Below, in pieces: positions 44,696 to 64,000 of a stretch of 64,000 nucleotides of DNA. How positions within the stretch are numbered: the stretch's first letter is position 1; every line of letters begins with the position of its first letter. The translations under genes were made by a program, and so were the position numbers. The DNA is from Maritimibacter alkaliphilus (GTDB lineage Bacteria > Pseudomonadota > Alphaproteobacteria > Rhodobacterales > Rhodobacteraceae). The notes beneath the pieces are model-generated. The model had not been told where the DNA came from and did not search any database. It saw only the letters and a list, made by a program, of their open reading frames with translations. The stretch spans positions 992,001-1,056,000 of the forward strand of contig NZ_JAHVIT010000001.1 in the NCBI RefSeq assembly GCF_019801605.1, read 5' to 3'.

Positions 44696-44704
44696 GGGTC
44701 TCCC

Positions 44705-45175: not shown

Positions 45176-45176
45176 C

Positions 45177-45971: not shown

Positions 45972-46011
45972 TTGTCTGGTTCCTTCCTTGCTCGAATAGG
46001 ATCTATGCACA

Positions 46012-46038: not shown

Positions 46039-46083
46039 GGGCGAACGGTTTCGTTCGTGGAGGAGAAAATCGAGGGAGGATCC

Positions 46084-47949: not shown

Positions 47950-47952
47950 AAG

Positions 47953-48723
47953 ATGAAGATCGACGGAATGGGGGCGCTGGTCACCGGCGGCGGATCGGGA
48001 CTGGGCGAGGCCACAGCGCGGGCGCTTGCCGCGCGCGGCGCGCAGGTGACAGTGCTGGATCTGAACGCCGAGGCCGCCGCGCGGGTCGCGGGCGAGATCG
48101 GGGGGCTGGCCACCAGCGGCGACGTGACGGACGAGGCGGCGGTGACCACCGCGCTGGACGCGGCGGAGGCGGCCCATGGCCCGCTGCGCATCGTGGTGAA
48201 CTGCGCGGGCATCGGCACCGCGGGCCGTGTCGTCGGCCGCGAGGGGCCGATGCCGCTGGCGGAGTTCGAGCGGGTGCTGCGGGTGAACCTCTTCGGCACC
48301 TTCAATGTCCTGCGGCTGGCGGCCTATCGCATGTCACTCTCCGATCCGCTGCCCGAGGGCGCGGGCGAGGGACGCGGGGTGGTGATCAACACCGCCTCGG
48401 TCGCGGCCTTCGACGGGCAGATCGGGCAGGCGGCCTACGCGGCCTCCAAGGGGGGCATCGTCTCCATGGCGCTGCCGATCGCGCGGGAATTCGGGCGCTT
48501 CGGCGTGCGGGTCAACACGGTGGCGCCGGGGGTCTTCCTGACGCCCTTGCTCTACACGCTGCCCGAGGCGGCGCAGCAGGCGCTTGCGCAGGGCATCCCC
48601 TTTCCGCCGCGCCTCGGCGACCCGGATGAATTCGCCCGCACGGTGATCTTCTGCGCCGAGATGGATTATCTCAACGGCGAGGTGATCCGTCTCGACGGGG
48701 CCAACCGGCTGCCGCCGAAATAG
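47953..48723 (+). CDS. Short-chain dehydrogenase, 3-hydroxyacyl-CoA dehydrogenase-like
   Basis: A 256-residue NAD(H) enzyme. The cofactor motif is ALVTGGGSGLGEATARALAARGA, followed by NCAG, the catalytic Ser in VVINTASVAAFDGQIGQ and YAASKGG with catalytic Tyr and Lys. The overall pattern matches 17-beta-HSD10/3-hydroxyacyl-CoA dehydrogenase-type SDRs. It starts 3 bp after the ligase gene. In a beta-oxidative shortening of the aromatic side chain it would oxidise the 3-hydroxy-3-arylpropionyl-CoA formed by the crotonase. Confidence 0.87.
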   Translation: MKIDGMGALVTGGGSGLGEATARALAARGAQVTVLDLNAEAAARVAGEIGGLATSGDVTDEAAVTTALDAAEAAHGPLRIVVNCAGIGTAGRVVGREGPMPLAEFERVLRVNLFGTFNVLRLAAYRMSLSDPLPEGAGEGRGVVINTASVAAFDGQIGQAAYAASKGGIVSMALPIAREFGRFGVRVNTVAPGVFLTPLLYTLPEAAQQALAQGIPFPPRLGDPDEFARTVIFCAEMDYLNGEVIRLDGANRLPPK

Positions 48724-48732
48724 GGGCCACCC

Positions 48733-50334
48733 ATGGGAGAGACGAGCGACCAGCAGCGCCGCAGCCTCGCGGCGCTCGCCGCCACACCCGGCTGGGCCGG
48801 CGTCTGCGCGGCCAGCGGCATGGATGACGAGACGGCGGCGGCAGTGCTCTCTGCCGCCGGCCAACTGGCCGAGGGGGTGATGATCCCCCTCGACGTGACG
48901 GCGGACCGGGAGGGCTGCCGGATGGAGGGCGGACGGGTCAGGGTGCCCGGTGCCTACCATGGCGCCTGGGCGGCCTATGCGGCGGGGGGCTGGATCGGCC
49001 TCGACCTGCCGGAGGCGCTCGGCGGCAGCGGCCTGCCGGTCTCGCTTCAGGCGATGGCGGCGCAGATCTTCGACCGGTCCTGCCCGGCCTTCAACATGGC
49101 CACCGGCGCCAGCCGCTCCGGCGCGGTGCTGCTGGCGGAGCGGGCGCCGGACCTCGCGGCGGAGTGGGTGCCCGCGCTGATCGCGGGGGAGCGGGCGGCG
49201 ACGATCTGCATCAGCGAACCGGGCGCGGGATCGGACGTGGGACGCCTGCGGACCCGGGCCGTGCGGGAGGATGGTGTCTGGCGCGTGACGGGGCAGAAGA
49301 TCTGGATTTCCTTCGGGGATCATGACCTCGTGCCGCGGATCGGGCATTGCCTGCTGGCGCGGACCTCGGACCAGCCGGGCACGCGGGGGATCAGCCTCTT
49401 CCTCGTGCCGAACCTGCGCGCGGATGGCGGTGACAACGGCGTGACCCCGGTCCGGATCGAGGAGAAAATGGGCCTGCATGGCTCACCCACCTGCGTGCTG
49501 GCCTTCGAGGGCGCCGAGGCGCATCTGATCGGCGAGGTCGATCGTGGCCTGCCGCAGCTTTTCACCATGATCGAGCTGATGCGGCTTCAGACCGGCGGGC
49601 AGGGCCTTGGCCTTGCCACCCGGGCCTGCGACGTGGCCGAGGCCTATGCGCAGGAGCGCGCACAGGGCGGCGACCCTCGCCTGCCGCCGGTGCCGATCGC
49701 CCGCCATCCCGATGTGCAGCGGCAACTGGCGCAGATGCGGGCGCGGACCGAGGTGCTGCGCGCGGCCGTGGCGGAGCTGGGCTGCACCATGGACCTTGCG
49801 CGGGCCGATCCGGCGGGCAGATATCCGGATGCGGGTGCCTATGCCGCCTTCCTGCTGCCGCTGATCAAGGCTTTCGGCGCCGAGACGGGCTTCGACGTTG
49901 CCAACCGGGGGATACAGGTGCTGGGCGGTGCGGGCTACACCGCGGAGTGGCCGTTGGAGCGGGCGGCGCGCGATGCCCGCGTGCTCTCGATCTACGAGGG
50001 GACGACGGGGATGCAGGCGCTCGACTTCCTCGAACGGCGCACGGTGAAGGACCGCGCGGGGCTCGACGCTTTCCTGTCCCGCGCCGAGGCGCTGGAGGGA
50101 CCGGGGGCCGAGGTGATCACGCGGTTCGCCGCGCTCGCGAGGGCGCTGCCCGGGGCGCTGCCGGACGGGCGGCTCTGGATCGCGGATGACTGGCTGCGCT
50201 GCGGCTGGCTGGCGCTGACGGCGCTGCTTGCGCCCCGGGTGGCGCAGTGGGACGCGACGGCGGCAGAGGCCGCCACGGCGCAGATCGTCGAGCGGTTCGA
50301 GGTTCATGCGAGCGCGGTGCGGGCGGCACTCTGA
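48733..50334 (+). CDS. Acyl-CoA dehydrogenase
   Basis: A 533-residue FAD enzyme with the acyl-CoA dehydrogenase layout: N-terminal helices, GWIGLDLPEALGGSGLP, the FAD/substrate motif CISEPGAGSDVGRLRTRA, KIWISFGDHD and a C-terminal helical domain ending in a DmdC/AidB-like extension (GYTAEWPLERAARDARVLSIYEGTTGMQALDFLERR). Its extra length and tail place it with DmdC-like 3-methylmercaptopropionyl/arylpropionyl-CoA dehydrogenases. In this operon it may desaturate dihydro-hydroxycinnamoyl-CoA, letting saturated side chains enter the same route. Confidence 0.85.
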   Translation: MGETSDQQRRSLAALAATPGWAGVCAASGMDDETAAAVLSAAGQLAEGVMIPLDVTADREGCRMEGGRVRVPGAYHGAWAAYAAGGWIGLDLPEALGGSGLPVSLQAMAAQIFDRSCPAFNMATGASRSGAVLLAERAPDLAAEWVPALIAGERAATICISEPGAGSDVGRLRTRAVREDGVWRVTGQKIWISFGDHDLVPRIGHCLLARTSDQPGTRGISLFLVPNLRADGGDNGVTPVRIEEKMGLHGSPTCVLAFEGAEAHLIGEVDRGLPQLFTMIELMRLQTGGQGLGLATRACDVAEAYAQERAQGGDPRLPPVPIARHPDVQRQLAQMRARTEVLRAAVAELGCTMDLARADPAGRYPDAGAYAAFLLPLIKAFGAETGFDVANRGIQVLGGAGYTAEWPLERAARDARVLSIYEGTTGMQALDFLERRTVKDRAGLDAFLSRAEALEGPGAEVITRFAALARALPGALPDGRLWIADDWLRCGWLALTALLAPRVAQWDATAAEAATAQIVERFEVHASAVRAAL

Positions 50335-50767: not shown

Positions 50768-51670
50768 TTACGCGGTCAGCCCCTCGGGTTCGGGCAGGCC
50801 CGCGCTGCGGCAGGCGGCGGTGACGGTGTTGGCCAGCAGGCAGGCGATGGTCATCGGCCCCACGCCACCGGGGACGGGGGTGATGGCACCGGCCACCTCG
50901 GCGGCGGAGGCATAGTCCACGTCGCCCACGAGGCGCGTCTTGCCTTCGCCGCGTTCCGGCGCGGGAATGCGGTTGATGCCCACGTCGATGACGGTGGCGC
51001 CGGGCTTGATCCAGTCGCCGGTCACCATCTCGGGGCGGCCCACGGCGGCCACGAGGATGTCGGCGCCACGCGCCACCTCGGCGAGGTTCTTGGTGCGGCT
51101 GTGGGCGATGGTCACGGTGGCATTGGCCCCCAGCAGCAGCTGCGCCATGGGCTTGCCCACGATGTTGGAGCGCCCGATGACCACGGCGTTGAGGCCCGAG
51201 AGATCGCCGAGGTGATCCTTCAGCATCAGGAGGCAGCCGAGCGGCGTGCAGGGCACCATGGCCTTCTGCCCGGTGGAGAGCAGGCCGACGTTCGAGATGT
51301 GGAAGCCGTCGACATCCTTGGCCGGGTCGATGGCAGCCAGCACCTTGGGCTCTTCGATATGCTTGGGCAGCGGCAGCTGGACGAGGATGCCATGCACCGC
51401 CGGATCGGCGTTCAGCTGGTCGATCAGCGCCAGCAGCTCGGCCTCGGGCGTCTCCTCGGGCAGGCGGTGCTCGTAGGAGTTCATGCCCGCCTCAAGGGTC
51501 TGGCGGTTCTTGGAGCCGACGTAGACCTCGGAGGCCGGGTCATTGCCCACCAGCACCACGGCGAGGCCGGGGGTCAGGTCATTCTCGGATTTCAGGCGGG
51601 CGACATGGGCCGCCACCTTTTCACGCAGGCCGGCCGCAAAGGCCTTGCCGTCAATTCTCGTCGCCGTCAC
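50768..51670 (-). CDS. folD: Bifunctional methylene-THF dehydrogenase/methenyl-THF cyclohydrolase
   Basis: A 300-residue cytoplasmic enzyme interconverting methylene-, methenyl- and 10-formyl-THF with NADP. The signatures [15 protein letters not shown] (with catalytic Lys), [28 protein letters not shown] and [15 protein letters not shown] are present. It is transcribed ahead of folB. With LigM and PurU in the right-hand island it can carry methyl-derived carbon to formyl-THF. Confidence 0.96.
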
Positions 51671-51967: not shown

Positions 51968-52300
51968 TCAGCCGATGCTCAGCCGGGGGCTCATCGGATC
52001 GGTGATCCGCTGCGCCTGGAACGTATCGGGCAGGGGCGTCACCTCGATGGAGGAGACGATGCCCGCGCCGTTGAAGGGATCGCCCTGAGCAAAGGCAGTG
52101 GCATCCGCGAGGCTGCGGGCCTCCAGCACGCCGAAGTTGCCGATGCTGGCGCCGCCCGCATCCACCAGCGCCGAGCCGATCAGCACCGATGCCAGACCGT
52201 CCCCGCCGGAGCCCACCCACTGGCGGTGGGTCGGGCGGGTCTCGTCGCGCAGGGCGTCCATGCCGGGATGGTGCAGGCAGCGCATCAGGAAGAAGGCCAT
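51968..52300 (-). CDS. YciI-family small protein, last gene of the ligAB operon
   Basis: A 110-residue protein with the ferredoxin-like alpha+beta fold suggested by MAFFLMRCLHHPG, RPTHRQWVGSGG, ALVDAGGASIGNFGVLEARSLADATAFAQGDPFNGAGIVSSIEVTPL. Related YciI and muconolactone-isomerase-type proteins act in aromatic degradation or remain unassigned. The His-Asp pair typical of YciI is not obvious. Its start overlaps the ligB stop by 1 bp (TGATG), so it is made together with the dioxygenase. Isomerisation of a ring-cleavage product is a possible role, unproven. Confidence 0.8.
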   Translation of the reverse strand: MAFFLMRCLHHPGMDALRDETRPTHRQWVGSGGDGLASVLIGSALVDAGGASIGNFGVLEARSLADATAFAQGDPFNGAGIVSSIEVTPLPDTFQAQRITDPMSPRLSIG

Positions 52301-53139
52301 CAGGCGTTCTCCAGCACGACCATGCCGGCCCCGGTCATCGAGGCGGGAGCGTAGTAATGCTTGTGCTTCAGCTCGACCTTGTCATCCATGGCCGCGCGCA
52401 TCACCAGCCACATGATCAGCTCCGCGCCTTCCGAGCCGAACTGCTCGACATAGTCCTCGCGGGTCATGTCGCGGTATTTCTCGTAGTCGTTCGCGATCCC
52501 GTCGAGCCAGGCCTGATCCGCCTCGCGGTTGATGAAGCCCGCGCGCGAGCCCTGCAACTGGTGCGACAGGCCGCCGGTGCCCATGATCACCACGCGCTCG
52601 TCGCCGGGGAAGCTCTCGATCGCCTTGCGCAGCAGCTTGCCCATCTCCCAGCAGCGCTGCGGGGTGGGGATCGGGTACTGGATCGTGTTCACCCAGATCG
52701 GGACGACCTTCACCGGCCAGTGCTCGGGCCGGCCGAAGAAGAGCTCCATCGGGACCTGAAGCCCGTGGTCCACCTCGATCTCGCGGCAGACCATCGGGTC
52801 GAAGTGGTTATCGACCAGCTGGTCGACGAGATGCCACGACAGGTCCACGGCGCCCTCGAAATCGGGCACGGCGCGGGGGCCCCAGCCCTCGTCCACGGGG
52901 GTGTAGCTCTCGGCCACGCCCACGGCGAAGGTCGGCACCCGGTCGAGGAAGAAGGTATTGCCATGGTCGTTGAAGATCACGACCGCCACGTCGGGCTTCT
53001 TGTCCGCCATCCACTGCTTGCCGGGGATGTAACCGTCGAAGAAGGGTTTCCAATCGGGGGTGTCGACAAGGCCCTTGTCGATGGCAATCCCGATGGAAGG
53101 TACGTGGCTGGTGCCCACGCCGCCAATGATCTCGGCCAT
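52300..53139 (-). CDS. ligB: Class III extradiol dioxygenase beta subunit (LigB-like)
   Basis: A 279-residue catalytic subunit that opens 4,5-dihydroxybenzoates with Fe(II). Counterparts of the Sphingobium LigB iron ligands His12, His61 and Glu242 are His12 (GTSHVPS), His59 (FNDHGN) and Glu240 (SEGAEL). The catalytic/acid residues His127 and His195 correspond to His125 (EVDHGL) and His193 (LSHQLQG). These LigB numbers are from memory. The ATG at 53139 overlaps the ligA stop by one base. Protocatechuate, gallate or 3-O-methylgallate are possible substrates. Confidence 0.93.
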   Translation of the reverse strand: MAEIIGGVGTSHVPSIGIAIDKGLVDTPDWKPFFDGYIPGKQWMADKKPDVAVVIFNDHGNTFFLDRVPTFAVGVAESYTPVDEGWGPRAVPDFEGAVDLSWHLVDQLVDNHFDPMVCREIEVDHGLQVPMELFFGRPEHWPVKVVPIWVNTIQYPIPTPQRCWEMGKLLRKAIESFPGDERVVIMGTGGLSHQLQGSRAGFINREADQAWLDGIANDYEKYRDMTREDYVEQFGSEGAELIMWLVMRAAMDDKVELKHKHYYAPASMTGAGMVVLENA

Positions 53140-53480
53140 CACTCTTTCCCCAGTCGCTGTTTCAGGAAATCCGCATGTTCCATCTGCGCCTGCGCGGCGC
53201 CGATCTCGGTCATCACCGCCGGGTCGACGGCGGCGATCTTGAGGATGAAGAAGAGGTTTCCGCCAAGGGCCACCATGCGGTGCCAGTCGCGGGCCATGAC
53301 GGCGGCCTTCTCCTCGGCGCTCAGGCCGTAGCTGTCGAGAAAGGCCTCCTCGTCGGCCTTGAAGGCGGCGCGGTTCTCGGGCTTGCCCAGGGACATGGCC
53401 ATCTTGTTCATCCGGTAGCCCTGCTTCGACCTTTCGCGGTCGAAGAGCGGGGTTTCGGGGATCTGCGTCGGATCAGACAT
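53139..53480 (-). CDS. ligA: Extradiol dioxygenase alpha subunit (LigA-like)
   Basis: A 113-residue small helical subunit that covers the LigB active site. Family marks are YRMNKMAMSLGKPENRAAFKADEEAFLDSYGLSAEEKAAVMARDWHRMVALGGNLFFILKIAA. The second of two nearby ATGs (53480) is chosen because GGAGG lies 6 nt upstream, inside the end of the hydrolase gene, which it overlaps by 8 bp. A separate LigA subunit points to PCA 4,5-dioxygenase-type enzymes rather than the fused GalA type. Confidence 0.92.
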   Translation of the reverse strand: MSDPTQIPETPLFDRERSKQGYRMNKMAMSLGKPENRAAFKADEEAFLDSYGLSAEEKAAVMARDWHRMVALGGNLFFILKIAAVDPAVMTEIGAAQAQMEHADFLKQRLGKE

Positions 53481-54183
53481 CCACATCCTCCTTGTGGCGG
53501 TTGAGCCAGCCGGTCACGGCGGCATTCGTCTCCTGCGCGCGCTCGCGGGGCAGGAAGTGGCCGGCGCCGTCGATCACCTCGACCTCGGCACGGGGCAATA
53601 CCTCGGCGATCTCGCGATGCTGCTTCTCGGGCGACCAGCCGTCCTGTGCGCCGGTGATCAGCAGCACGGGGCCGCGGAAGCCGCCGATGTAGGTCAGCGC
53701 ATCGGGGCGGTCCATCAGCGCGCGGATCTGGCGTTCGTGGATGTCAGGGCCCGCGGCCAGCACCATTTCGGTGAGATCCGCCACCAGTGCCGGATCCGGC
53801 TCACGGTCATTGGCGAGCATCGGCGGCAGCCACTCGGCGGCAAGGGCTGTCATGTCCTCGTGCCCGCGGGCGATCTTGGCCAGCCGCTTGGGGGCCTCGT
53901 CGGGCTTGCGGCCGTCATGGCCAGTGTTGGCAAGGACAAGCGCCACGATCCGCTCCGGCGCCTGACGCGCCATCTCCATGGCGACGCGGCCGCCCATGGA
54001 GTGCCCGACCGGGATCAGCGGCCCGTCATGCTCGGCCAACAGCGTGGCGGCCATGCTCTCGATCGTGGGATCGCGGGTGACATCCGCATCGGCGGTGGAG
54101 AGCCACTCCGGCGCGGCCTCGGCCAGCGGACGCCATACACGGGCATCTGACACAAGACCGGGGATCAGTAGCAATGTCGTCAT
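53473..54183 (-). CDS. Alpha/beta hydrolase, first gene of the ligAB operon
   Basis: A 236-residue cytoplasmic serine hydrolase. The nucleophile elbow is VGHSMGGRVAM, the acid Asp lies in ITGAQDGWSP and the His in GAGHFLPRERA. It resembles small carboxylesterases and meta-cleavage-product hydrolases. Its end overlaps ligA and carries the ligA ribosome site, so the two are made together. In a 3-O-methylgallate route an esterase is needed to remove the methyl ester left after ring cleavage; this gene is a natural candidate. Strong TTAGGGAGGG ribosome site. Confidence 0.85.
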   Translation of the reverse strand: MTTLLLIPGLVSDARVWRPLAEAAPEWLSTADADVTRDPTIESMAATLLAEHDGPLIPVGHSMGGRVAMEMARQAPERIVALVLANTGHDGRKPDEAPKRLAKIARGHEDMTALAAEWLPPMLANDREPDPALVADLTEMVLAAGPDIHERQIRALMDRPDALTYIGGFRGPVLLITGAQDGWSPEKQHREIAEVLPRAEVEVIDGAGHFLPRERAQETNAAVTGWLNRHKEDVDV

Positions 54184-54206
54184 GAACGGCCCTCCCTAAA
54201 CCAGCT

Positions 54207-54222
54207 CGTGAATACATTCACG
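54207..54222. promoter_or_regulatory. Candidate GntR operator in front of the ligAB operon
   Basis: The dyad CGTGAAT-AC-ATTCACG lies 24 bp before the hydrolase start on the minus strand. It shares the ATACATT core with the sites before the GntR gene and before ligM, and a related AATG-cata-CATT element is at 54272-54283. Confidence 0.6.
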
Positions 54223-54344
54223 GGGCTGGGTTAGCCGGGATTCAAGGGAATCACAAGATTAAGCTGGTCCTAATGCATACATTTTGGCAGTTTGGCTGCC
54301 ATGTCGTGCGTTCCGTACGGCAAAGATTGGCGGACGGCACTTCC

Positions 54345-54354
54345 GTGTATACAC
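54345..54354. promoter_or_regulatory. Candidate GntR operator in front of its own gene
   Basis: The perfect palindrome GTGTATACAC lies 28 bp before the GntR start codon, suitable for autoregulation. It matches the ATGTATACAT element before ligM in 8 of 10 positions. Confidence 0.65.
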
Positions 54355-54381
54355 TGGCCGAAGCCCGGACCGGAGAGACGA

Positions 54382-55137
54382 ATGGCCAGCCAGACGACCG
54401 CAAAGACCCATACCATGCGTGCCCTCGTGGAATTGCGCAAGCGGATCATAGACGGGGACATCCCCGGCGGGACGCGGCTGTTCGAGGTGGCGCTTGCGGA
54501 AGACCTGCAGATCTCGCGCACACCCGTTCGCGAGGCGATGTCGCGCCTCGCCGAGGAGGGGCTGCTGGAGCGCGCCCGCTCCGGCGGGTTCCTCGTGCGC
54601 AGCTTCGCCTATGCGGATGTGATCGACACGATCGAACTGCGCGGCGTGCTGGAGGGGACCGCGGCACGGCTCGCAGCCGAGCGCGGCGTATCGGATGCCA
54701 AGCTGAAGGAGATCGGCGCCATCGTGCAGAAGCTAGATCTCTGCATTGGGGAAACGCCGGACGATGTTGATTTCACGGGCTATTCCGAGCTGAACAGCGA
54801 GTTTCACGAGGTCCTTGCGGCGCTGCCCGGCAGTGCCACGCTGGAACGCGAGCTGGACCGCGCCAAGCGGCTGCCCTTTGCCTCGCCCTCGGCCTTCCTG
54901 CCGGACAAGACGCAATTGTCGAAGTTCCGCCGTTCGCTCCATGTGGCGCAGGAACAGCATCGCGAGATCGTGACCGCCATCCACCGGCGCGAGGGCGCGC
55001 GGGCCGAGGCGCTGGCGCGGGAACATGCACAGGCCGCCCGGCGGAACCTCGAATACATCTTTTCCAAGGATCGCAGCCTCGTCTCCTCGGTGCCCGGCCT
55101 TGCGCTCGTGGCGTCTGATGGGCCCGAGGACGTCTGA
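54382..55137 (+). CDS. GntR-family transcriptional regulator (FadR/FCD subfamily)
   Basis: A 251-residue regulator. The N-terminal winged helix is RIIDGDIPGGTRLFEVALAEDLQISRTPVREAMSRLAEEGLLERARSGGFLV; the C-terminal FCD ligand domain has candidate metal histidines in NSEFHEVL, QEQHREIV and AREHAQAARRN. Carboxylate ligands are usual for the subfamily. It lies between the divergent ligAB operon and ligM, flanked by TGTATACA-type palindromes on both sides, so it most likely controls both. The ATG at 54382 follows CCGGAGAGACGA. Confidence 0.9.
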   Translation: MASQTTAKTHTMRALVELRKRIIDGDIPGGTRLFEVALAEDLQISRTPVREAMSRLAEEGLLERARSGGFLVRSFAYADVIDTIELRGVLEGTAARLAAERGVSDAKLKEIGAIVQKLDLCIGETPDDVDFTGYSELNSEFHEVLAALPGSATLERELDRAKRLPFASPSAFLPDKTQLSKFRRSLHVAQEQHREIVTAIHRREGARAEALAREHAQAARRNLEYIFSKDRSLVSSVPGLALVASDGPEDV

Positions 55138-55227
55138 CCGCAGGCCGGGTCTCTCCCCGATCAATCGCAAAAATCCGCGCGGGAGGAAAATTCTTCCCTT
55201 GCTTTCTGCGCGCCGAGTCGCAATGTC

Positions 55228-55237
55228 ATGTATACAT
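55228..55237. promoter_or_regulatory. Candidate GntR operator in front of ligM
   Basis: The palindrome ATGTATACAT, set within a wider CAATG...CATTG dyad (55221-55239), lies 27 bp before the ligM start codon. Another GTATAC core occurs just inside the gene at 55349-55354. Confidence 0.65.
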
Positions 55238-55264
55238 TGTGACTGCTAAAGGGAGGAACCTGAG

Positions 55265-56674
55265 ATGGCAGGCCAAAGCCTTAGCTCTGTTTTGCAGGGC
55301 GTTTCGAACCCCGTGGAGCTTCTCCGCAATTCGCGTGGTGGTATCTATGTATACCCGGTCGTGGCGCCTGAATTCTCCAACTGGCGCAGCGAGCAGATGG
55401 CATGGCGCCATTCCGCGGTGCTCTTCGACCAGACCCACCACATGGATGAGCTGATCGTCGAAGGCCCCGACGCCGAGGCCTTCCTCGCCTACGTGGGGAT
55501 CAACGCCTTCGGCAACTTCGACCTGAACCGCGCCAAGCACTTCGTGCCCGTGACCCCCGCGGGCCACGTGATCGGCGACATGATCATCTTCCGCGAGCGG
55601 GAGGACAAATTCGTCCTCGTCGGGCGCCAGCCCACCGCCAACTGGACCAAGTTCCAGGCCGCGATCGGCAAGTGGAAGGTGCGCCTGATCCATGATCCGC
55701 GCTCCGACAGCCGCCCCGAAGGCGAGCGCGTGCTGCGCACCCATTACCGCTTCCAGATCCAGGGCCCCGACGCCAACAAGATCTTCGACGAGATCAACGG
55801 CGGGCCGGTGCCGGACATCAAGTTCTTCCATGTCGACTGGATCAACGTCGGCTCCAAGAAGGTGCAGGCGCTGCGTCACGGCATGGCCGGCGCGCCGGGG
55901 CTGGAGATCTGGGGCCCGTATTCCGACAAGGCCTATGTGCTCTCGACGATCCTCGAGGCGGCCGAGAAGGTCGGCGTCGACCTGCGCCGCGTGGGCAGCC
56001 GGGCCTATTCCACGAACACGGTCGAGTCGGGCTGGATTCCCTCGCCGCTGCCGGGGATCTACTCGGGCGACGGCATGATGCAGGAATACCGCGACTGGCT
56101 GGGCGCAGACGCCTACGAGGCCGTGGGTTCGATCGGCGGCTCCTTTGTCTCCGACAACGTCGAAGACTACTACACGAACCCCTTCGAACTGGGCTACGGC
56201 TTCTACATCGGGTGGAAGAAGGACGGCTTCATCGGCAAGGACGCCCTGAGCAAGCTGAAGGACGCGCCCACCAACCGCAAGAAGGTCACCTTCGAGTGGA
56301 ACCCAGAGGACGTGATGAAGGTCATCCAGTCGAACTTCGAGGAGGGCACGCCCTACAAGTGGATCGACTTCCCGCAGCCAAACTATGCCTCGTCCTCCGC
56401 GGACATGATCATGGACGGCGACAAGATGGTCGGCATGTCGATGTTCAACGGCTACTCCTACAACGAGCGCCGTCTGCTCTCGCTCGGCGTGGTGAGCCAG
56501 GACGTCAACGTGGGCGACGTGCTGACCCTCAAGTGGGGCGAGCCGGACGAGACCCAGAAGACCTCGACCGAGAAGCACAGGCAGGCCGACATCCGGGTCC
56601 GTATCGCGCCCACGCCCTATGCGGCCGAAGCGCGCGAGAACTACGCCGACAGCTGGCGCACGAAGGGCAGCTGA
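55265..56674 (+). CDS. ligM: THF-dependent aromatic O-demethylase, LigM/DesA-like
   Basis: A 469-residue cytoplasmic enzyme of the aminomethyltransferase (GcvT) fold that moves the methoxy methyl group of vanillate, 3-O-methylgallate or syringate to THF, giving methyl-THF. The length matches LigM (471) and DesA (about 460) of Sphingobium SYK-6. Family features include FDQTHHMDELIVEGPDAEAFL, RFQIQGPDANKIFDEINGG, GLEIWGPYSDK, ESGWIPSPLPGIYSGD and FELGYGFYIGWKKDGFIGKDAL. LigM and DesA preferences cannot be separated by eye. It has a GGGAGG ribosome site and a palindromic operator just upstream; no oxygenase-type (VanAB) demethylase is in the window. Confidence 0.9.
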   Translation: MAGQSLSSVLQGVSNPVELLRNSRGGIYVYPVVAPEFSNWRSEQMAWRHSAVLFDQTHHMDELIVEGPDAEAFLAYVGINAFGNFDLNRAKHFVPVTPAGHVIGDMIIFREREDKFVLVGRQPTANWTKFQAAIGKWKVRLIHDPRSDSRPEGERVLRTHYRFQIQGPDANKIFDEINGGPVPDIKFFHVDWINVGSKKVQALRHGMAGAPGLEIWGPYSDKAYVLSTILEAAEKVGVDLRRVGSRAYSTNTVESGWIPSPLPGIYSGDGMMQEYRDWLGADAYEAVGSIGGSFVSDNVEDYYTNPFELGYGFYIGWKKDGFIGKDALSKLKDAPTNRKKVTFEWNPEDVMKVIQSNFEEGTPYKWIDFPQPNYASSSADMIMDGDKMVGMSMFNGYSYNERRLLSLGVVSQDVNVGDVLTLKWGEPDETQKTSTEKHRQADIRVRIAPTPYAAEARENYADSWRTKGS

Positions 56675-57053
56675 GCCTTCGCGCGACGGCCCCTGGTGCG
56701 CGCTCGAGGAGGGGCGCGCATCGGCTGGCCGATCAATCTGCCCGTGGCGGAAACTGTTGCTTGCGGGAATGATTGACCATGTTACCTTCCGAGGGCGGCC
56801 ACGTGCCGCACCGGCCGTCCTCGAACAGGCAGATGCAGAAAATCAATTTTGCGTTTGTCGTGAAAGTTCAATTTTTCCTGTGGGTAAGGCTCCATCGCTC
56901 CTCGTGAGGGGAAGGGGCGTGTTGCGGAAAGTTTATACCGCTCCCAGGAATTGAATTTGAGGCGCACAGGGCTTTGACCCATGTTTCGGCCTGCATGGAG
57001 GCCGGTTCGGGGATGTGTGCCGGTTCTATCCATGAAACTCGGGAGGAAGACAC
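56675..57053. other. 379-bp gap before the second TRAP operon
   Basis: No gene is supported. The middle is AT-richer, with two TCAATTTT direct repeats 25 bp apart (56843-56850, 56868-56875), a fit for an activator or repressor site of the downstream operon. A 61-codon frame starts at 56769 (MIDHVTFRG, like the start of VOC proteins) and ends at 56954 without further similarity. No TGTATACA site and no clear terminator after ligM were seen. Confidence 0.5.
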
Positions 57054-58040
57054 ATGATTCACAAATCCATCAGCAGGCTTGCGATCTCTGCCGCGCTGGT
57101 CGTCGGCGGCGCCACTGCCGCCATGGCGGAGGAGTTGTCCTTCGCGCATTTCGTGCCGCCGCAGCACACGCTGACCGGCTCGGTCATCGAGCCTTTGCAG
57201 GAGGGGCTGAAGGAGGAGCTGGGCGACGACCTGACGGTGCGCGTCTATCCGGGCGGTGAGCTCGGCAAGGGTCCGCTGGAGCAATACGTCCGCGTGGTGC
57301 AGGGCGTGGCCGACATCGTCTGGGGCCTGCCGGGCTATACCTCGTCGCAGTTCTCCAAGACCATGGTCGCCGAGATGCCGGGCGTGATCCCCGTTGGCGA
57401 GCCGGGCTATCCCGCGATCTGGAAGTCGATGGACCTGATCAAGGACGAATTCCCCGCCACCAAGCCGCTGGCGCTTTGGACCTCCGAGCCGAACATCTTC
57501 ATCATGAAGGACAAGGAAATCCGCACCCCGGATGACCTGAAGGGCCTGAAGATGCGGGTCGCAGGGTCGACCTCGGCCGCCGTGATCGAGGCGCTTGGCG
57601 CGACGCCGGTGCAGATGCCCGCGGGCGAGATCTACAACTCGCTCCAGACCGGCCTGATTGACGGTGTGGTGACCGGGGCCTCCGCCGTGGCGGACTTCAA
57701 GCTCTCGGAAGTGGCGAACAAGTACACCGTCGGCGCGCCGCTCGGGCGTCTGACCTTCTATGTCGTCATGAACCAGGGCCGCTATGACGGGCTGACCGAC
57801 GACCAGAAGGCCGCGATCGACAAGTTCGCCGGCGAATACCTCTCCAAGAGCGCCGAGACCGCGTGGAACAAGCGCGCGACCGAAACCATCGCCGAGCTGG
57901 ATGCCGATCCCAACAAGACCGTCATCACCCTGACCGACGACGAGGCCGCCGCCTTTGGCGAGCTGACGATCCCGGTGACCGAGAAGGTCGTGGGCGAGCT
58001 GGGGGCAGAGGACGTCCTCACCTCCATGCGTGGCGAGTAA
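57054..58040 (+). CDS. dctP: TRAP transporter substrate-binding protein (DctP, second system)
   Basis: A periplasmic binding protein of 328 residues with signal peptide (ends TAAMA-EE). Core motifs are VVQGVADIVWGLPGYT, LKGLKMRVAGSTSAAVIEALGATPVQMPAGEIYNSLQTGLIDGVVTG, including the conserved Arg. GGGAGGAAG gives a strong ribosome site. It is followed by dctQ and dctM and then by ring-cleavage genes, so an aromatic or pathway dicarboxylate such as gallate, vanillate or protocatechuate is the likely ligand. Confidence 0.9.
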   Translation: MIHKSISRLAISAALVVGGATAAMAEELSFAHFVPPQHTLTGSVIEPLQEGLKEELGDDLTVRVYPGGELGKGPLEQYVRVVQGVADIVWGLPGYTSSQFSKTMVAEMPGVIPVGEPGYPAIWKSMDLIKDEFPATKPLALWTSEPNIFIMKDKEIRTPDDLKGLKMRVAGSTSAAVIEALGATPVQMPAGEIYNSLQTGLIDGVVTGASAVADFKLSEVANKYTVGAPLGRLTFYVVMNQGRYDGLTDDQKAAIDKFAGEYLSKSAETAWNKRATETIAELDADPNKTVITLTDDEAAAFGELTIPVTEKVVGELGAEDVLTSMRGE

Positions 58041-58050
58041 GGCCACCGGC

Positions 58051-58563
58051 ATGCTTGCCATTCTACGCAAGACCGCGGACGGGCTCATCAGCCTGTCCGC
58101 CTTCGCCGGCACCCTCGGCCTGCTCTTCGTGACGGGCGTGGTGCTGGTGGATGTCATCGGCCGGGCCTTCGGCGCGCCCCTGCGGGGCGGGCAGGACTTC
58201 TACCAGATGGGCATGGTCATCATCGTCTTCGGGGGTATGGCGCTTTGCGACAAGCTGGGCGGCCACGTCTCGGTCGATATCTTCGAACGCCACTTCCCGG
58301 ACCGCTTCAATCACGTCGTGGACATCCTCGCGGCCCTGCTGGGCGCGGCGATCTTCGCGGGGATCGCCTACACGGTCTATGACAGTTCCAAGCTGAGCCA
58401 GATGCTGAAACTCGCCACCAATATCGTGAAGCTGCCCAAGTGGTACTTCCAGTGGGTGCTCTGCGTCATGGCGCTGATCACCGCCTTCGGCATGGTCCTG
58501 CGCGCGGTCGAACTGGCGCTGTCGGGCCCCTATGCCCGCGCCGACAAGGAGATCCGGGAATGA
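58051..58563 (+). CDS. dctQ: TRAP transporter small permease (DctQ, second system)
   Basis: A 170-residue membrane protein with four hydrophobic segments. FVTGVVLVDVIGRAFGAPLRGGQDFYQMG and the short cytoplasmic linkers match DctQ. The ATG at 58051 is 10 bp after dctP; an overlapping in-frame GTG at 58030 is less likely. It overlaps dctM by 4 bp. Unlike the first TRAP operon there is no spacer or stem-loop between dctP and dctQ. Confidence 0.88.
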   Translation: MLAILRKTADGLISLSAFAGTLGLLFVTGVVLVDVIGRAFGAPLRGGQDFYQMGMVIIVFGGMALCDKLGGHVSVDIFERHFPDRFNHVVDILAALLGAAIFAGIAYTVYDSSKLSQMLKLATNIVKLPKWYFQWVLCVMALITAFGMVLRAVELALSGPYARADKEIRE

Positions 58564-59864
58564 GCGGCGAACTGGTCGGCCTCATCGGCATCCTCGCGCT
58601 CTTCGGGCTGCTGATCATCCGCGTGCCCGTCGCGATCTCGATGTTCGCCGTGGGTTTCGCGGGCATCTGGGCGCTGCGCGACCTCAAATCGGCCATGAGC
58701 CTCATGGCCTCGGAAAGTTTCACGCTCGCCTCCTCGGCCGAGCTGGTGGTGGTGCCGCTCTTCATCCTGATGGGCAACGTCGCCTCGGTCACGGGGATGA
58801 GCGCGCGGCTCTATGACGCCGCCTATGCGATCATCGGACGGTTCCGCGGCGGGCTAGCCTCGGCCACGGTGCTGGGCTGTGCGGGCTTTGCCGCGCTCTC
58901 GGGCTCCTCGGTGGCCTCGGCGCTGACCATGGGCAAGGTCTCCATGGCCGAGATGGACCGCTTCAACTACGACAACCGCCTCTCCACCGGGGTGGTGGCC
59001 GCGGGCGGCACGTTGGGCATCCTGATCCCGCCCTCCACCGGCTTCGTGATCTACGCGATCCTCACCCAACAGAGCATCGGGCGGCTGTTCCTCGCGGGCG
59101 TCCTGCCGGGGCTGCTGCTGCTGGCGATGTTCATTGCCACCATCGCGGTGCTGTGCTGGCTACGTCCGGGCTTCGGCCCCGCCGGCCCTCGCACCACGAT
59201 AAGCGAGAAGACCAGGAAACTCGTCGGCGCGCTGCCCGTGCTGGCGGTAGTGATCCTGACCATCGGCGGCATCTACACCGGGATCTTCTCGCCCGTGGAG
59301 GCCTCCGCCGTGGGGGCCGGGCTGATCATCGTGATCGGGGCGCTGATGGGCAAGCTGACCCTGTCGAGTTTCTGGGCCGCGGCCAAGGACTCGGTCGTCA
59401 CCACGGCGACGGTGATGCTGATCCTGATCTCGGCGCACATGCTGAACCCCTTCCTCGCGCTGACCCATATCCCGTCGCTGGTGGGCGATTTCCTGGCCGG
59501 GCTGGACGTGGGGCCGATGGCGATCCTCGGGCTGATCCTGCTGACCTACCTGGTCCTGGGGTGCTTCCTCGAAGGTTTCGCCATGCTGGTGCTGACCATG
59601 CCGATCTACTTCCCGGTGATCACCCAGTTGGGCCTCGACCCGATCTGGTTCGGCGTGCTGGTGGTGCTGACGCTGGAGATGGGGCTGATCTCACCGCCTG
59701 TGGGGGTCAACGTCTTCATCGTGAAATCGGTGGCCAAGGACGTGCCGCTGGGGCGGATCTTCGCGGGCGTGACGCCGTTCTGGTTCGCGATGTTGCTGAC
59801 GTTGGTGGTGCTGGTGATCTTCCCACAGATCTCGCTGCTCTTGCCAAACACGATGATGAATTGA
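58560..59864 (+). CDS. dctM: TRAP transporter large permease (DctM, second system)
   Basis: A 434-residue permease, same length as the first DctM in the window but clearly distinct in sequence. Marks are VVPLFILMGNVASVTGMSARLYDAA, GFAALSGSSVASALTMGKVSMAEM, TLGILIPPSTGFVIYAILT, GCFLEGFAMLVLTMPIYFPVI and EMGLISPPVGVNVFIVKSVAKDVP. The start overlaps the dctQ stop (ATGA). The next gene, a dioxygenase, follows after 13 bp, so transport and catabolism are co-transcribed. Confidence 0.92.
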   Translation: MSGELVGLIGILALFGLLIIRVPVAISMFAVGFAGIWALRDLKSAMSLMASESFTLASSAELVVVPLFILMGNVASVTGMSARLYDAAYAIIGRFRGGLASATVLGCAGFAALSGSSVASALTMGKVSMAEMDRFNYDNRLSTGVVAAGGTLGILIPPSTGFVIYAILTQQSIGRLFLAGVLPGLLLLAMFIATIAVLCWLRPGFGPAGPRTTISEKTRKLVGALPVLAVVILTIGGIYTGIFSPVEASAVGAGLIIVIGALMGKLTLSSFWAAAKDSVVTTATVMLILISAHMLNPFLALTHIPSLVGDFLAGLDVGPMAILGLILLTYLVLGCFLEGFAMLVLTMPIYFPVITQLGLDPIWFGVLVVLTLEMGLISPPVGVNVFIVKSVAKDVPLGRIFAGVTPFWFAMLLTLVVLVIFPQISLLLPNTMMN

Positions 59865-59877
59865 GGAGGCACGCATC

Positions 59878-60840
59878 ATGACCGACCCCTGTTACGATGT
59901 CGCCCATCTCGGCCATGTCGAGATCTACACCGACAAGTTCGAGGAGAGCCTCGACTTCTTCACCCGGGTCTACGGGCTCAAGCTCAGCGGGCAGGACGAG
60001 ACATCGGCCTACCTGCGGGCCTGGGAGGACTACGAGCTCCACACCCTGAAGCTCACCCGGCACGAGACCACGGGCGTGGGGCACATCGGCTACCGCGTCT
60101 CCTCGCCGGAGGCGCTGGAGCGCCGGGTCGCCGCGATCGAGGCCAGCGACTACACCTCGCTGGGCTGGGTCGAGGGCGACATGGGCCATGGCCGCGCCTA
60201 TCGGTTCGAGGATCCCTTCGGCCACGTGTTCGAGCTTTACTGGGACACCCACCGCTATGTGCCTGACGAGGCGGACAAACCCGCGCTCAAGAACATGGCC
60301 AGCCGCTACACCGGGCAGGGTGCCGCGCCCCGGCGCCTCGACCATGTGAACCTGCTGTCCTCGGATGTGACAGCCTTCCGCGACTTCATGCAGACCTGTC
60401 TCGGCTCCCGCGTGACCGAACAGATCCTTCTGGATAACGGGCGGTTGGGGGGCTGCTGGTTCACGGTCAACAACAAGACCTACGACCTGGCCTGCACGGA
60501 GGAGCACGGCGGCGGCGACGCCCGCCTGCATCACGTCACCTATGCCACCGATCAGCGCGAGGACATCCTGCGCGCGGCGGATATCTTCCTCGAGAACGGG
60601 GTGCACATCGAGACCGGGCCGCACAAGCACGCGATCCAGGGCACCTTCTTCCTCTACGTCTGGGAGCCGGCGGGCAACCGGGTGGAACTGGCCAATGCCG
60701 GCGCCCGCCTGATCCTCGCCCCCGACTGGGAAACCGTCACCTGGACCGAGGCCGAGCGCAAGCGCGGCCAGGCCTGGGGCCTGAAGACGATCGAGACATT
60801 CCATACCCACGGCACGCCCCCCGTCAGGGCGGCCGAGTAA
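59878..60840 (+). CDS. VOC-superfamily (type I) extradiol ring-cleavage dioxygenase
   Basis: A 320-residue two-domain VOC protein of the catechol 2,3-dioxygenase/BphC type. Iron ligand candidates are His156 (RRLDHVNLL), His218/His219 (RLHHVTYAT) and Glu269 (GNRVELAN). A second-shell His248/250 and Tyr259 lie in TGPHKHAIQGTFFLYVW. All ligands being present, it should be active. It is unrelated in fold to LigB, so the island encodes two kinds of ring cleaver. Its neighbours (GalB-, GalC- and GalD-like) process oxalomesaconate; which phenol it opens is unknown. Confidence 0.85.
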   Translation: MTDPCYDVAHLGHVEIYTDKFEESLDFFTRVYGLKLSGQDETSAYLRAWEDYELHTLKLTRHETTGVGHIGYRVSSPEALERRVAAIEASDYTSLGWVEGDMGHGRAYRFEDPFGHVFELYWDTHRYVPDEADKPALKNMASRYTGQGAAPRRLDHVNLLSSDVTAFRDFMQTCLGSRVTEQILLDNGRLGGCWFTVNNKTYDLACTEEHGGGDARLHHVTYATDQREDILRAADIFLENGVHIETGPHKHAIQGTFFLYVWEPAGNRVELANAGARLILAPDWETVTWTEAERKRGQAWGLKTIETFHTHGTPPVRAAE

Positions 60841-60882
60841 TCGCGGGCGGGCCCGCGTGCCTGCCGAGAGAAGGAGAGACCT

Positions 60883-61611
60883 ATGTCCAAGACGGCACTG
60901 GTGATCAGCGCCCATTCGGCGGATTTCGTCTGGCGCTGTGGCGGCGCGATCGCGCTGCACGAGGAGAAGGGCTATGACGTCACCGTCGTCTGCCTGTCCT
61001 ACGGCGAGCGGGGCGAGAGCGCCAAGCTCTGGAAGCAGGAGGGCATGACCCTCGATGGCGTGAAGACCGCCCGCCGCAAGGAGGCCGAGAATGCCGCCGC
61101 CGCCCTGGGTGTCAGCGACATCCAGTTCCTCGACCTCGGCGATTATCCCCTGATGCTGGAGCGCGAGGACAAGTACAGGCTCGTCGACATCATCCGCAAG
61201 GTGCAGCCCAGCTTCATGCTGAGTCATTCGCACTACGACCCCTACAACACCGACCACATGTATGCGACCTCGGTCGCGCTGGAGACGCGGATGATCGCGC
61301 AGGCCTGGGGCCACAACCCCGGCGAGAAGGTGCTGGGGGCGCCGCAGCTCTACCTCTTCGAGCCGCATCAGACCGAGCAGATGGGCTGGAAACCCGACAC
61401 CTTCCTCGACATCACCCCGGTCTGGGAGAAGAAGCGCGCGGCCATCGAATGCATGGAGGGGCAGCAGCACCTCTGGCACTATTACACCAACGTGGCCGAG
61501 AACCGCGGCAACCACTTCCGCCGCAACTCCGGCGGCCAGTCCGGCGGGCGCGATGCGAAATACGCGGAAGGCTTCCAGTCGGTCTTCCCGCGCACGGTGG
61601 ATGAACTCTGA
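60883..61611 (+). CDS. galB: 4-oxalomesaconate hydratase, GalB-like (PIG-L deacetylase fold)
   Basis: A 242-residue zinc enzyme of the PIG-L/LmbE fold. The metal site that in deacetylases reads AHPDDE is [12 protein letters not shown] here, which is the GalB form known from Pseudomonas putida, where this fold hydrates 4-oxalomesaconate to 4-carboxy-4-hydroxy-2-oxoadipate. The second metal region is [15 protein letters not shown]. The following gene overlaps by 1 bp and is the aldolase of the next step, which supports the assignment. It replaces the unrelated hydratase LigJ used by sphingomonads. Confidence 0.85.
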
Positions 61612-62285
61612 TGGGCGGCGTGGTTGTACAGAACATCGAGCGCGCCGATCCGGAAGTGGTGCGCAAACTGGGCGAAGCGGGCGTGGCCACGGTGCACGAG
61701 GCGCAGGGCCGCAAGGGGCTGATGGCGCCCTACATGACGCCGATCTACGCGGGCGCCATGGTCGGCGCCTCGGCGGTCACGATCTCGGCCCCGCCGGGCG
61801 ACAACTGGATGGTCCATGTGGCGATCGAGCAGTTGCAGGCGGGCGATATCCTGCTGCTGGCGCCGACCTCGCCCTGCGATGACGGCTACTTCGGTGACCT
61901 GCTGGCGACCTCGGCCATGGCGCGGGGCTGCAAGGGGCTGATCATCGACGCGGGCGTGCGCGACGTGCGCGACCTGACGGCCATGGGCTTCCCGGTCTGG
62001 TCGAAGTCGGTCCATGCGCAGGGCACGATCAAGGAGACTGTCGGCTCGGTCAACGTGCCGGTGGTCTGTGCGGGCGCCTACGTCCGGCCCGGGGACATCA
62101 TCGTGGCCGATGACGACGGCGTCTGCGTCGTGGCCCGGGAAGAGGCCGAAGCGGTGCTGGAGAAGACCGAGGCCCGCCTTGCCGCCGAAGAGGGCAAGCG
62201 CCAGCGACTGGCTGCGGGCGAGCTGGGGCTCGACATATACGACATGCGCGGACGGCTGGAGGCCAAGGGCCTCAAGTACATCTGA
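61611..62285 (+). CDS. ligK: 4-carboxy-4-hydroxy-2-oxoadipate aldolase, RraA fold (GalC/LigK-like)
   Basis: A 224-residue class II aldolase that splits 4-carboxy-4-hydroxy-2-oxoadipate into pyruvate and oxaloacetate with a divalent metal. The RraA/HMG-aldolase motif is [28 protein letters not shown], holding the Arg-Asp pair, and [31 protein letters not shown] is typical for the aldolase branch rather than the RNase E inhibitor RraA. Its ATG overlaps the galB-like stop (TGATG). Confidence 0.9.
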
Positions 62286-62400
62286 CGCACCCCGGCGCGC
62301 GTCTGCCGCGCCGGACCACCTGACATCACGCCCCCCGCCGAAGGCGGGGCCCCGGACGCCTGCGCGCCCGGACCGGTGAGGCTTTGCCGAGGAGGACACA

Positions 62401-63465
62401 ATGGACGGGATAGACGTTGTCTGGATGCGGGGCGGCACCTCCAAGGGGGGCTATTTCCTCGCCTCCGACCTGCCGCAGGACGTGGCCGCGCGGGATGCGC
62501 TGCTGCTCGGCGTCATGGGCTCGCCGGATCCGCGCCAGATCGACGGGATGGGCGGCGCGGACCCGCTGACCTCCAAGGTGGCGGTGGTGCGCCGCTCGGA
62601 CCGTGCGGAGGCGGATGTGGACTATCTCTTCCTGCAGGTCTTCGTGGACCGCGCCATCGTCACCGATGCGCAGAACTGCGGCAATATCCTCGCAGGTATC
62701 GGCCCCTTCGCCATCGAGCGCGGGCTGGTTCCGGCACAGGACGGCGAAACACCCGTACGGATCTGGATGGAGAACACCGGCCAGCTGGCGGTGGCGCGGG
62801 TGAAGACCCCCGGCGGCCGCGTGACCTATGCCGGCGCGGCGCGGATCGACGGCGTGCCGGGAACCGCGGCGCCGGTTCCGATCGCCTTCCGCGAAACGGC
62901 GGGGTCCTCCTGCGGGGCGCTTCTGCCGACGGGCAGGGCGGTGGACGTGATCGACGGCGTGGCCTGCACGCTGATCGACAACGGGATGCCCTGTGTCGTC
63001 ATGCGTGCCGATGCCTTCGGCCTGACCGGGACGGAAAACCCCGAGGAACTGGAGGCCAACGGGGCCTTGCGGGCGCGGCTGGAGGCGATCCGCCTCAAGG
63101 CCGGACCGATGATGGCCCTCGCAGATGTCAGCGAGAAATCGGTGCCCAAGATGACGCTGGTCAGCGCGCCGGGGCAGGGCGGCGCAATCGCCACCCGGAC
63201 CTTCATCCCGCACCGCTGCCACAAGGCCATCGGTGTCCTCGGCGCCGTCTCCGTCGCCACCGCCTGCCTGCTGCCCGAGGGGCCCGGGGCGGAGCTGGCG
63301 GTGATCCCGGAGGGAGATGAAAAATCCCTCTCGGTCGAACATCCCACCGGCGAGATGACGGTGATCGCCACTGTGCAGGATGGCGAGGTGACCGAGGCCG
63401 CGATCCTGCGCACCGCGCGCAAGCTGATGGAGGGGCGGGTGTTTCCCGCACCTATAGGGGGATGA
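62401..63465 (+). CDS. galD: 4-oxalomesaconate tautomerase, PrpF fold (GalD/LigU-like)
   Basis: A 354-residue isomerase with the DapF/PrpF fold. WMRGGTSKGGYFLASDLP, the DPLTSKVAVV loop and IVTDAQNCGNILAGIGPFAIERGL are diagnostic for GalD/LigU, which converts the ring-cleavage product to the tautomer used by the hydratase. C-terminal HRCHKAIGVLGAVSVATACLLPEG also fits. GAGGAGGACAC gives a strong ribosome site. A 115-bp spacer separates it from the aldolase gene. A PrpF-type aconitate isomerase is the alternative, but the neighbours argue for GalD/LigU. Confidence 0.9.
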   Translation: MDGIDVVWMRGGTSKGGYFLASDLPQDVAARDALLLGVMGSPDPRQIDGMGGADPLTSKVAVVRRSDRAEADVDYLFLQVFVDRAIVTDAQNCGNILAGIGPFAIERGLVPAQDGETPVRIWMENTGQLAVARVKTPGGRVTYAGAARIDGVPGTAAPVPIAFRETAGSSCGALLPTGRAVDVIDGVACTLIDNGMPCVVMRADAFGLTGTENPEELEANGALRARLEAIRLKAGPMMALADVSEKSVPKMTLVSAPGQGGAIATRTFIPHRCHKAIGVLGAVSVATACLLPEGPGAELAVIPEGDEKSLSVEHPTGEMTVIATVQDGEVTEAAILRTARKLMEGRVFPAPIGG

Positions 63466-63672: not shown

Positions 63673-64000
63673 ATGACGTCCTATGTCCTGACCCTGCAAT
63701 GCGCCAACCGCCCCGGTATCGTGGCCGCGGTCGCCAATGTCCTTGCCGCCGCCAGCGGCAACATCACCGAGGCGCGCCAGTTCGACGACAGCACCAGCGG
63801 CACCTTCTTCATGCGCGTCGCGGTCGACTACCCGGGGGCCGAGGCCGATCTGCGGCAGCAGATGGAGGGGCTCGCCACGGAGTACGGCATGACCTGGGAA
63901 CTCTGGCACAGGGGCGCACGGCCGAAGGTGCTGCTCATGGTGTCGAAGTTCGACCATTGCCTCGGCGATCTGCTCTACCGCAACCGCATCGGAGAGCTGA
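63673..64000 (+). CDS. purU: Formyltetrahydrofolate deformylase (N-terminal part, runs off the window)
   Basis: The first 109 codons are visible. An N-terminal ACT domain (YVLTLQCANRPGIVAAVANVLAAASGNITEARQFDD ... FFMRVAVD) leads into the start of the formyltransferase-fold domain (RPKVLLMVSKFDHCLGDLLYR), the arrangement of PurU. It hydrolyses 10-formyl-THF to THF and formate. GGAGGAG precedes the ATG. Its position behind THF-dependent demethylation genes suggests it regenerates free THF for LigM. The catalytic part lies outside the window. Confidence 0.92.
   Translation, partial: MTSYVLTLQCANRPGIVAAVANVLAAASGNITEARQFDDSTSGTFFMRVAVDYPGAEADLRQQMEGLATEYGMTWELWHRGARPKVLLMVSKFDHCLGDLLYRNRIGEL

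Follow-up and report, generated by a model that had tools for sequence, protein, structure and literature searches.

The 64,000-nt stretch of Maritimibacter alkaliphilus DNA studied here (the window; contig NZ_JAHVIT010000001.1, positions 992,001 to 1,056,000) contains an island of aromatic-acid genes at its positions 51968..63465. Within it, this bacterium of marine type seems to encode two ring-breaking enzymes for lignin-derived acids that are not related to each other. The first is encoded by a minus-strand operon, i.e., an alpha/beta hydrolase (53473..54183; Ser62 in GHSMGG), which may hydrolyse the methyl ester formed by 3-O-methylgallate cleavage, a LigA-type small subunit (53139..53480; PF07746, 99.3 bits), a LigB-type catalytic subunit (52300..53139; PF02900, 202 bits) and, as terminal gene, a YciI-like protein (51968..52300; PF03795, 33.5 bits, cut-off 24). 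Based on a LigB tree, the catalytic subunit is assigned to a hydrolase-linked clade, denoted LigB' in the following. The second enzyme is a type I (VOC) extradiol-type ring-cleavage dioxygenase (59878..60840, plus strand; PF00903, 82.8 bits), our candidate gallate dioxygenase. It is followed on the same strand by a GalB-type 4-oxalomesaconate hydratase of the PIG-L family (60883..61611; PF02585, 83.9 bits), a GalC/LigK aldolase (61611..62285; TIGR02798, 379 bits, cut-off 304.5) and a GalD/LigU 4-oxalomesaconate tautomerase (62401..63465; NF033377, 534.5 bits, cut-off 440). The window GalB is 60-84% identical to PIG-L- or galB-annotated genes of five related loci (L005-L009). Between the two enzymes lies the gene of a LigM-type tetrahydrofolate-dependent vanillate/3-O-methylgallate O-demethylase (55265..56674, plus strand; NF047885, 609.5 bits, cut-off 580; 5x1i), which scores below the cut-off of the DesA model (546.7 vs. 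800).

A first-pass annotation of the window had named LigA, LigB, LigM, GalB, GalC and GalD. Given their profile scores, all are found where they had been placed, with intact open reading frames. The active-site counterparts it had reported for LigB are present as well, since the respective stretches align with SYK-6 LigB (1b4u_B), and the overlap of hydrolase and ligA is indeed 8 bp. Absent from that annotation were the VOC dioxygenase and the nature of the YciI-like gene. The assignment of catalytic LigB residues follows PMC3962378 and background knowledge. Beside hydrolase/ligA, the ligA/ligB and ligB/YciI junctions overlap, too, and the four genes look translationally coupled from their arrangement.

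Next, we studied the VOC dioxygenase. Its VOC fold and the metal ligands His156, His219 and Glu270 are present. At the position of HPCD His200 it has a tyrosine (Tyr202), which is shared by 56/56 distinct VOC sequences with at least 70% identity (from 61 loci with repeats). Three more distant homologues, which are not gal-linked, show a histidine at this position. The closest protein by sequence is PDB 9wgj ('Catechol 1,2-dioxygenase'), which also has a tyrosine there and is missing from the fold list shown. With 307.2 bits, the VOC protein stays below the cut-off of the catechol 2,3-dioxygenase equivalog TIGR03211 (320.2).

To place the gene in context, we took 80 loci from public genomes that surround the best GalD relatives and sought each gene at set thresholds (at least 65% identity for VOC). 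VOC is found in 36/80 of these galD loci and ligC in 22/80, while both never occur together. In 35 of the 36 VOC loci, the VOC gene is on the same strand and at most 176 bp away from galB or galC; for the exception (L059), the nearest gal gene is 6.3 kb away. LigM accompanies VOC in 26/36 loci vs. 0/22 loci with other LigB types. Furthermore, 27/36 VOC-bearing galD loci are, in the stretch examined, without LigB of either kind and without this hydrolase family. Therefore, the VOC product would enter GalD there without this esterase, unless it is encoded elsewhere. The association extends to plasmids, where gal genes accompany the Tyr-type VOC in the displayed stretch of 7/9 loci (L005-L009, L150, L153), i.e., Agrobacterium (twice), Thioclava, Roseibium, Pantoea (6 kb between), a Paracoccaceae and the actinobacterium Nonomuraea. 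One of the Agrobacterium plasmid clusters has the order galB-VOC-galC-galD-tannase. Near the 80 galD loci, no tannase was found at 35% identity to the Agrobacterium tannase, and the tannase linkage thus stems from one plasmid type.

Similar results are observed for whole genomes. Among 387 genomes sampled evenly from the class, VOC with at least 70% identity is present in 5 (including the window genome), and GalD in all of these 5 vs. 54/387 overall (p 3e-4 with the window genome excluded, kinship ignored). Two of them (G110, G175) combine VOC with GalD and gave no match for LigB at E 1e-40, such that VOC is the sole ring-opening candidate found there. Within the genus, 13/22 genomes carry VOC and 9/22 LigB', all 9 being among the 13 (window genome counted in each; chance 0.0014, kinship ignored). 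The genes need not be adjacent: one Rhodobacteraceae gal cluster (L023) lacks VOC, which is located elsewhere in the same genome. In another genome (G015), the hydrolase operon forms a unit with GntR, LigM and TRAP far from VOC, and in a further one (G001, L128) the 20 kb read contain the operon and neither LigM nor gal genes. The VOC and hydrolase modules are therefore separable.

Based on these data, LigAB as the single ring-opener was rejected, namely given the VOC gene in the gal operon and the genomes with VOC and GalD without LigB match. LigAB could still open both gallate and 3-O-methylgallate, with the VOC enzyme handling some other substrate, e.g., pyrogallol or a catechol by-product. 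Promiscuous LigABs are on record, since Novosphingobium LigAB and LigAB2 act on 3-O-methylgallate, gallate and protocatechuate (PMC8091115), and the VOC protein scores highest with the catechol 2,3-dioxygenase model and has RHA1 dihydroxybiphenyl dioxygenase and AphC as best fold matches. We consider this unlikely given G110 and G175 and the position of VOC between or beside galB and galC, once with a tannase nearby. A further point concerns the LigA-like domain of DesB, whose Glu377 selects gallate (PMC3962378). In an alignment of uncertain register (the published LigAB counterpart is Phe, while the alignment gives Ser for SYK-6 LigA), window LigA has Leu80 at this position, as have 17/17 distinct LigA' sequences, in contrast to the Glu of DesB and of the GalA of L155; this fits a division of labour in which gallate falls to the VOC enzyme. 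Window LigA is below its equivalog cut-off (TIGR02792, 88.9 vs. 108.6), and so is LigB for the GalA/DesB equivalog (NF009904, 312 vs. 412), the window enzyme having two subunits rather than a single chain. All in all, we regard it as quite probable that the VOC protein acts on gallate. The first-pass annotation had LigAB opening gallate or 3-O-methylgallate; the latter is kept as the best reading, while the gallate part is not supported, given that the gal operon has its own VOC dioxygenase.

For the hydrolase module, we compiled 18 pieces with LigB' (10 galD loci and 8 same-genus stretches), of which 17 are distinct, as L018 and L121 come from the same contig. The order hydrolase-LigA-LigB is kept in 18/18 pieces. 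YciI follows in 17, the exception being L018, which is cut at its end (L121 has YciI), i.e., the full order is found in 17/17 distinct loci. LigB' is accompanied by ligC or ligI in 0/10 loci, while other LigB loci have ligC in 21/22 cases. In a maximum-likelihood LigB tree (61 rows; rows below 240 aa, including L018 and L022, were dropped), LigB' forms one clade with 100/100 support (17 rows including the window). Its sister (92/89, not starred) comprises the LigI-linked LigBs plus one LigC-linked plasmid row (L011). That is, the tree splits almost wholly by partner into LigC-linked, LigI-linked and hydrolase-linked clades. Several alphaproteobacterial gal clusters, among the galD loci L049, L054, L055, L057 and L058, hold two LigABs in separate clades, one at LigC and the other at LigI; the LigI-linked LigAB may be a 3-O-methylgallate enzyme that makes the pyrone.

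In some homologues, hydrolase and LigA are fused into a single chain of 335-352 aa. Such fusions make up 13 of the 120 listed hydrolase homologues (of 645 found), and 8 of them were aligned. In the model of one fusion, the alpha/beta-hydrolase part is joined by a poorly ordered linker (236-252) to a helical LigA part, which was modelled with moderate confidence. The first 50 fold matches listed for this model are alpha/beta hydrolases, headed by esterases and including a feruloyl esterase, an enol-lactonase and BioH. More distant hydrolase relatives are linked to demethylases as well: in Sphingobium, a gene for a true DesA (901 bits, cut-off 800) is overlapped by that of a 40% relative, and a Roseomonas plasmid has the order LigA-LigB-hydrolase(39%)-VOC, followed by a transporter, VanA (PF19112, 170 bits), GntR and VanB.

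Two other assignments of the hydrolase have to be weighed against these observations. According to the first, VOC opens 3-O-methylgallate and the hydrolase serves the VOC product, LigAB being the gallate enzyme. The Roseomonas operon, with its hydrolase directly between LigB and VOC, would fit this, and so would the LigM linkage of VOC loci. Still, most VOC loci are without this hydrolase family, such that the methyl ester would be stranded in 27/36 of them unless a hydrolase is encoded elsewhere, and the hydrolase fusions are to LigA, which together render the assignment distinctly improbable. In the second, LigAB and the hydrolase open another substituted protocatechuate, and the hydrolase cleaves a C-C bond of the meta-product in a BphD/HsaD-like manner. 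The hydrolase has a weak sequence similarity to HsaD/BphD, and the module of G001 without LigM or gal genes nearby points the same way, while the best fold matches (esterases, enol-lactonase) and the links to LigM, DesA and VanA speak for a different chemistry; we deem this second assignment rather doubtful. The claim of the first-pass annotation that the hydrolase removes the methyl ester is thus retained as the best reading, to which the adjacency in 17/17 loci and the LigA fusions point. It had placed the pathway in Rhodobacterales; the module extends beyond this order, as Rhizobiales have it, too. In summary, LigAB and the hydrolase fairly likely act on 3-O-methylgallate.

We also searched the rest of the window genome (4.9 Mb, 20 contigs, completeness 99.7%). 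Among the GalD relatives listed for it, the closest is that of Pseudooceanicola nanhaiensis (94%). It has a single PF02900 gene. LigC and LigI had been noted as missing from the window, and this extends to the genome: LigC was not found (best match of the Paraburkholderia LigC reference 28% over 141 aa, E 2e-4), and LigI was not recognised among the three PF04909 proteins, two of which show 27-28% to the LigI reference while the third is unmatched at threshold. The same reference recovers LigI with at least 50% in 31/80 galD loci. Both pcaG and pcaH are above their cut-offs (205 vs. 126 and 343 vs. 296). Thus, a route by 3,4-cleavage is available for protocatechuate, and recognised enzymes do not suffice to complete a 4,5-route. 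The first-pass interpretation thereby withstands the check it had itself proposed, i.e., a genome-wide look for ligC and ligI. LigM/DesA-like demethylases are encoded twice, the second one (G000:C2:473285-474631, L129) having 41% to the window LigM and being a candidate for the syringate step.

Several observations weigh against assigning gallate to VOC and 3-O-methylgallate to LigAB and hydrolase. First, linkage was counted in genomes that are related to each other, and GalD similarity was the criterion for choosing the 80 loci. At the given thresholds, 21/80 galD loci have no ring-opener (13 shorter pieces, 8 full 21-kb ones). VOC is also found apart from the gal genes, i.e., in Chimaeribacter (L149; no gal gene within 9 kb on each side) and Roseomonas (L148; galBCD absent from the 15 kb displayed), and one genome (G389) has a 61% VOC and no GalD match. 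When LigB' is compared for LigC alone, the p-value is 0.054. In addition, the LigI-linked LigABs of L054 and L086 carry the hydrolase near a PobA-like gene (by eye), a neighbour that would point to protocatechuate. Since the Roseomonas LigB with hydrolase groups with GalA (long branch), hydrolase coupling occurs at three places on the LigB tree. On plasmids of Sinorhizobium and Sphingomonas, hydrolase relatives at 44-47% are encoded apart from LigAB. Finally, regarding the enzyme from syringate to 3-O-methylgallate, no VanA was found in the genome (zero matches in the PF19112, VanA_C search), and the second demethylase is below both cut-offs (DesA 554 vs. 800, LigM 499 vs. 580). Taking everything together, we lean slightly towards both parts holding at once, i.e., VOC on gallate as well as LigAB plus hydrolase on 3-O-methylgallate.

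Among the further genes of the island, a GntR-FCD regulator (54292..55137, plus strand; PF00392 and PF07729 above cut-off; start possibly internal) is divergent from the hydrolase operon and keeps its position in most loci. Another regulator, a LysR protein of about 390 aa (L131:1651-2829), has two separate LysR-model matches, as with tandem DNA-binding domains; similar proteins are seen by eye in L019, L045, L122, L124 and L127. The TRAP transporter DctP-DctQ-DctM (57054..59864, plus strand; PF03480; TRAP_S1; DctM TIGR00786 with 319 bits, cut-off 268) is a probable aromatic-acid uptake system, within which DctQ is named from its position and conservation (no NCBIfam match). A DUF1932 NAD-binding oxidoreductase (L045:11072-11950) recurs in L005, L006, L011, L148 and L155, whatever the ring-opener.

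A tetrahydrofolate-dependent demethylase requires one-carbon (C1) enzymes, i.e., FolD, PurU and MetF. FolB and FolD are encoded left of the island, with folD (50768..51670, minus strand; NF010785, 519.7 bits, cut-off 396) adjoining it, and the start of purU, encoding formyl-tetrahydrofolate deformylase, lies to its right (63673..63999, plus strand, continuing past the window; NF004684, 102.8 bits for the present part). A distant MetF-like gene (24 bits on the MetF model) is located to the right in the genome. Accordingly placed at the island's edges, purU would provide C1 disposal for LigM and folD the recycling of C1-tetrahydrofolate. In total, two distant MetF-like proteins are near the island, namely at 31872-32843 of the window (by eye, first residues) and the one just mentioned (L131:589-1569). 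Next to the island, the cluster at 43820-50334 comprises an amidohydrolase, MarR, a crotonase (PRK08150, above cut-off), an acyl-CoA synthetase (PRK12582, below cut-off), an SDR (by eye) and an acyl-CoA dehydrogenase. It looks like a hydroxycinnamate-type CoA pathway able to feed the island.

From gene content and order, their conservation, the fusions, family membership and active-site residues, we infer the substrates, products and channelling of both modules as follows. The island would degrade syringyl-type acids via two ring-opening modules with GalD, GalB and GalC in common. Within the first, LigM would demethylate 3-O-methylgallate to gallate, with the C1 units being recycled by the MetF-like protein, FolD and PurU, and VOC would open gallate to 4-oxalomesaconate. 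Within the second, LigAB would open 3-O-methylgallate to the methyl-ester product CHMOD, from which the hydrolase would take the methyl group before cyclisation to 2-pyrone-4,6-dicarboxylate. The YciI-like protein is possibly responsible for an isomerase/tautomerase step, i.e., it may aid the isomerisation of this second product. Protocatechuate would be left to pcaGH. A hydrolase beside the dioxygenase makes sense because an organism without LigI cannot use 2-pyrone-4,6-dicarboxylate, and given a hand-over of CHMOD, gene overlap and gene fusion are to be expected. More tentatively, and somewhat short of an even chance, VOC might constitute a second, unrelated gallate dioxygenase family (Tyr for His200, with cleavage possibly being intradiol at His-His-Glu), combined with a hydrolase that is bound or fused to LigA and channels the methyl ester. 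The extradiol-directing histidine would be dispensable because intradiol and extradiol cleavage of gallate yield the same product.

Gallate is a main tannin product as well as an intermediate of syringyl lignin. To our knowledge, the bacterial gallate dioxygenases described so far, as encountered in open-access literature, are LigB-type. No type I/VOC gallate dioxygenase was seen in open-access literature listings or in passages of PMC12311729. If true, the VOC enzyme, whose current annotation is either catechol 2,3-dioxygenase or VOC family protein, would explain genomes that have GalD without a LigB match. The hydrolase-LigA fusions are a natural test of substrate channelling at a step whose side loss yields 2-pyrone-4,6-dicarboxylate, a compound sought after as a polymer precursor. 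Without the hydrolase, such strains would be expected to produce this compound, as in Pseudomonas NGC7. For the ester route, a published pathway exists of which it is a variant. The claim of a VOC gallate dioxygenase has greater novelty and generality, and is advanced as a candidate that is not proven.

Compared to GalA of Pseudomonas putida and DesB of Sphingobium SYK-6, the VOC enzyme is likewise proposed to feed gallate into the oxalomesaconate steps. However, GalA and DesB are single-chain LigB-type enzymes, while the window VOC belongs to an unrelated superfamily. Within the latter, it differs from AphC, the catechol 2,3-dioxygenases and HPCD by a Tyr at the His200 position, a Thr at the Arg243 position and its gal-operon setting. 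A Bacillus type I enzyme is inactive on pyrogallol and protocatechuate (PMC8671467), such that activity on compounds of this kind is no general property of the type I superfamily.

The compact ester-hydrolysis route inferred in the first-pass annotation is of a kind already published for MgaABC of Pseudomonas sp. NGC7. There, MgaAB opens 3-O-methylgallate to CHMOD, the alpha/beta hydrolase MgaC removes the methyl group, and deletion of mgaC converts syringate almost quantitatively to 2-pyrone-4,6-dicarboxylate, the half-life of CHMOD cyclisation being about 70 min (PMC12314914). Both systems have separate alpha/beta dioxygenase subunits, an operonic alpha/beta hydrolase, a GntR-type regulator and GalBCD, and no LigI; the window hydrolase is likened to MgaC by family description. 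In contrast to the window genome, for which VanA was not found, NGC7 demethylates by VanA1B1. Its extra protein is the SnoaL-like MgaD instead of YciI, which may take the same role (a guess from position alone). Furthermore, MgaAB resembles GalA (47/41%), while the window LigB falls into the sister clade of LigI-linked LigBs. For Novosphingobium aromaticivorans, PMC8091115 proposes that DesC/DesD, together with LigAB, lead from CHMOD to oxalomesaconate after 3-O-methylgallate cleavage. DesC is likened here by role only, and this organism keeps LigI and uses the same LigAB on protocatechuate. With respect to NGC7, the window adds the VOC dioxygenase, and some window-type relatives have their hydrolase fused to LigA.

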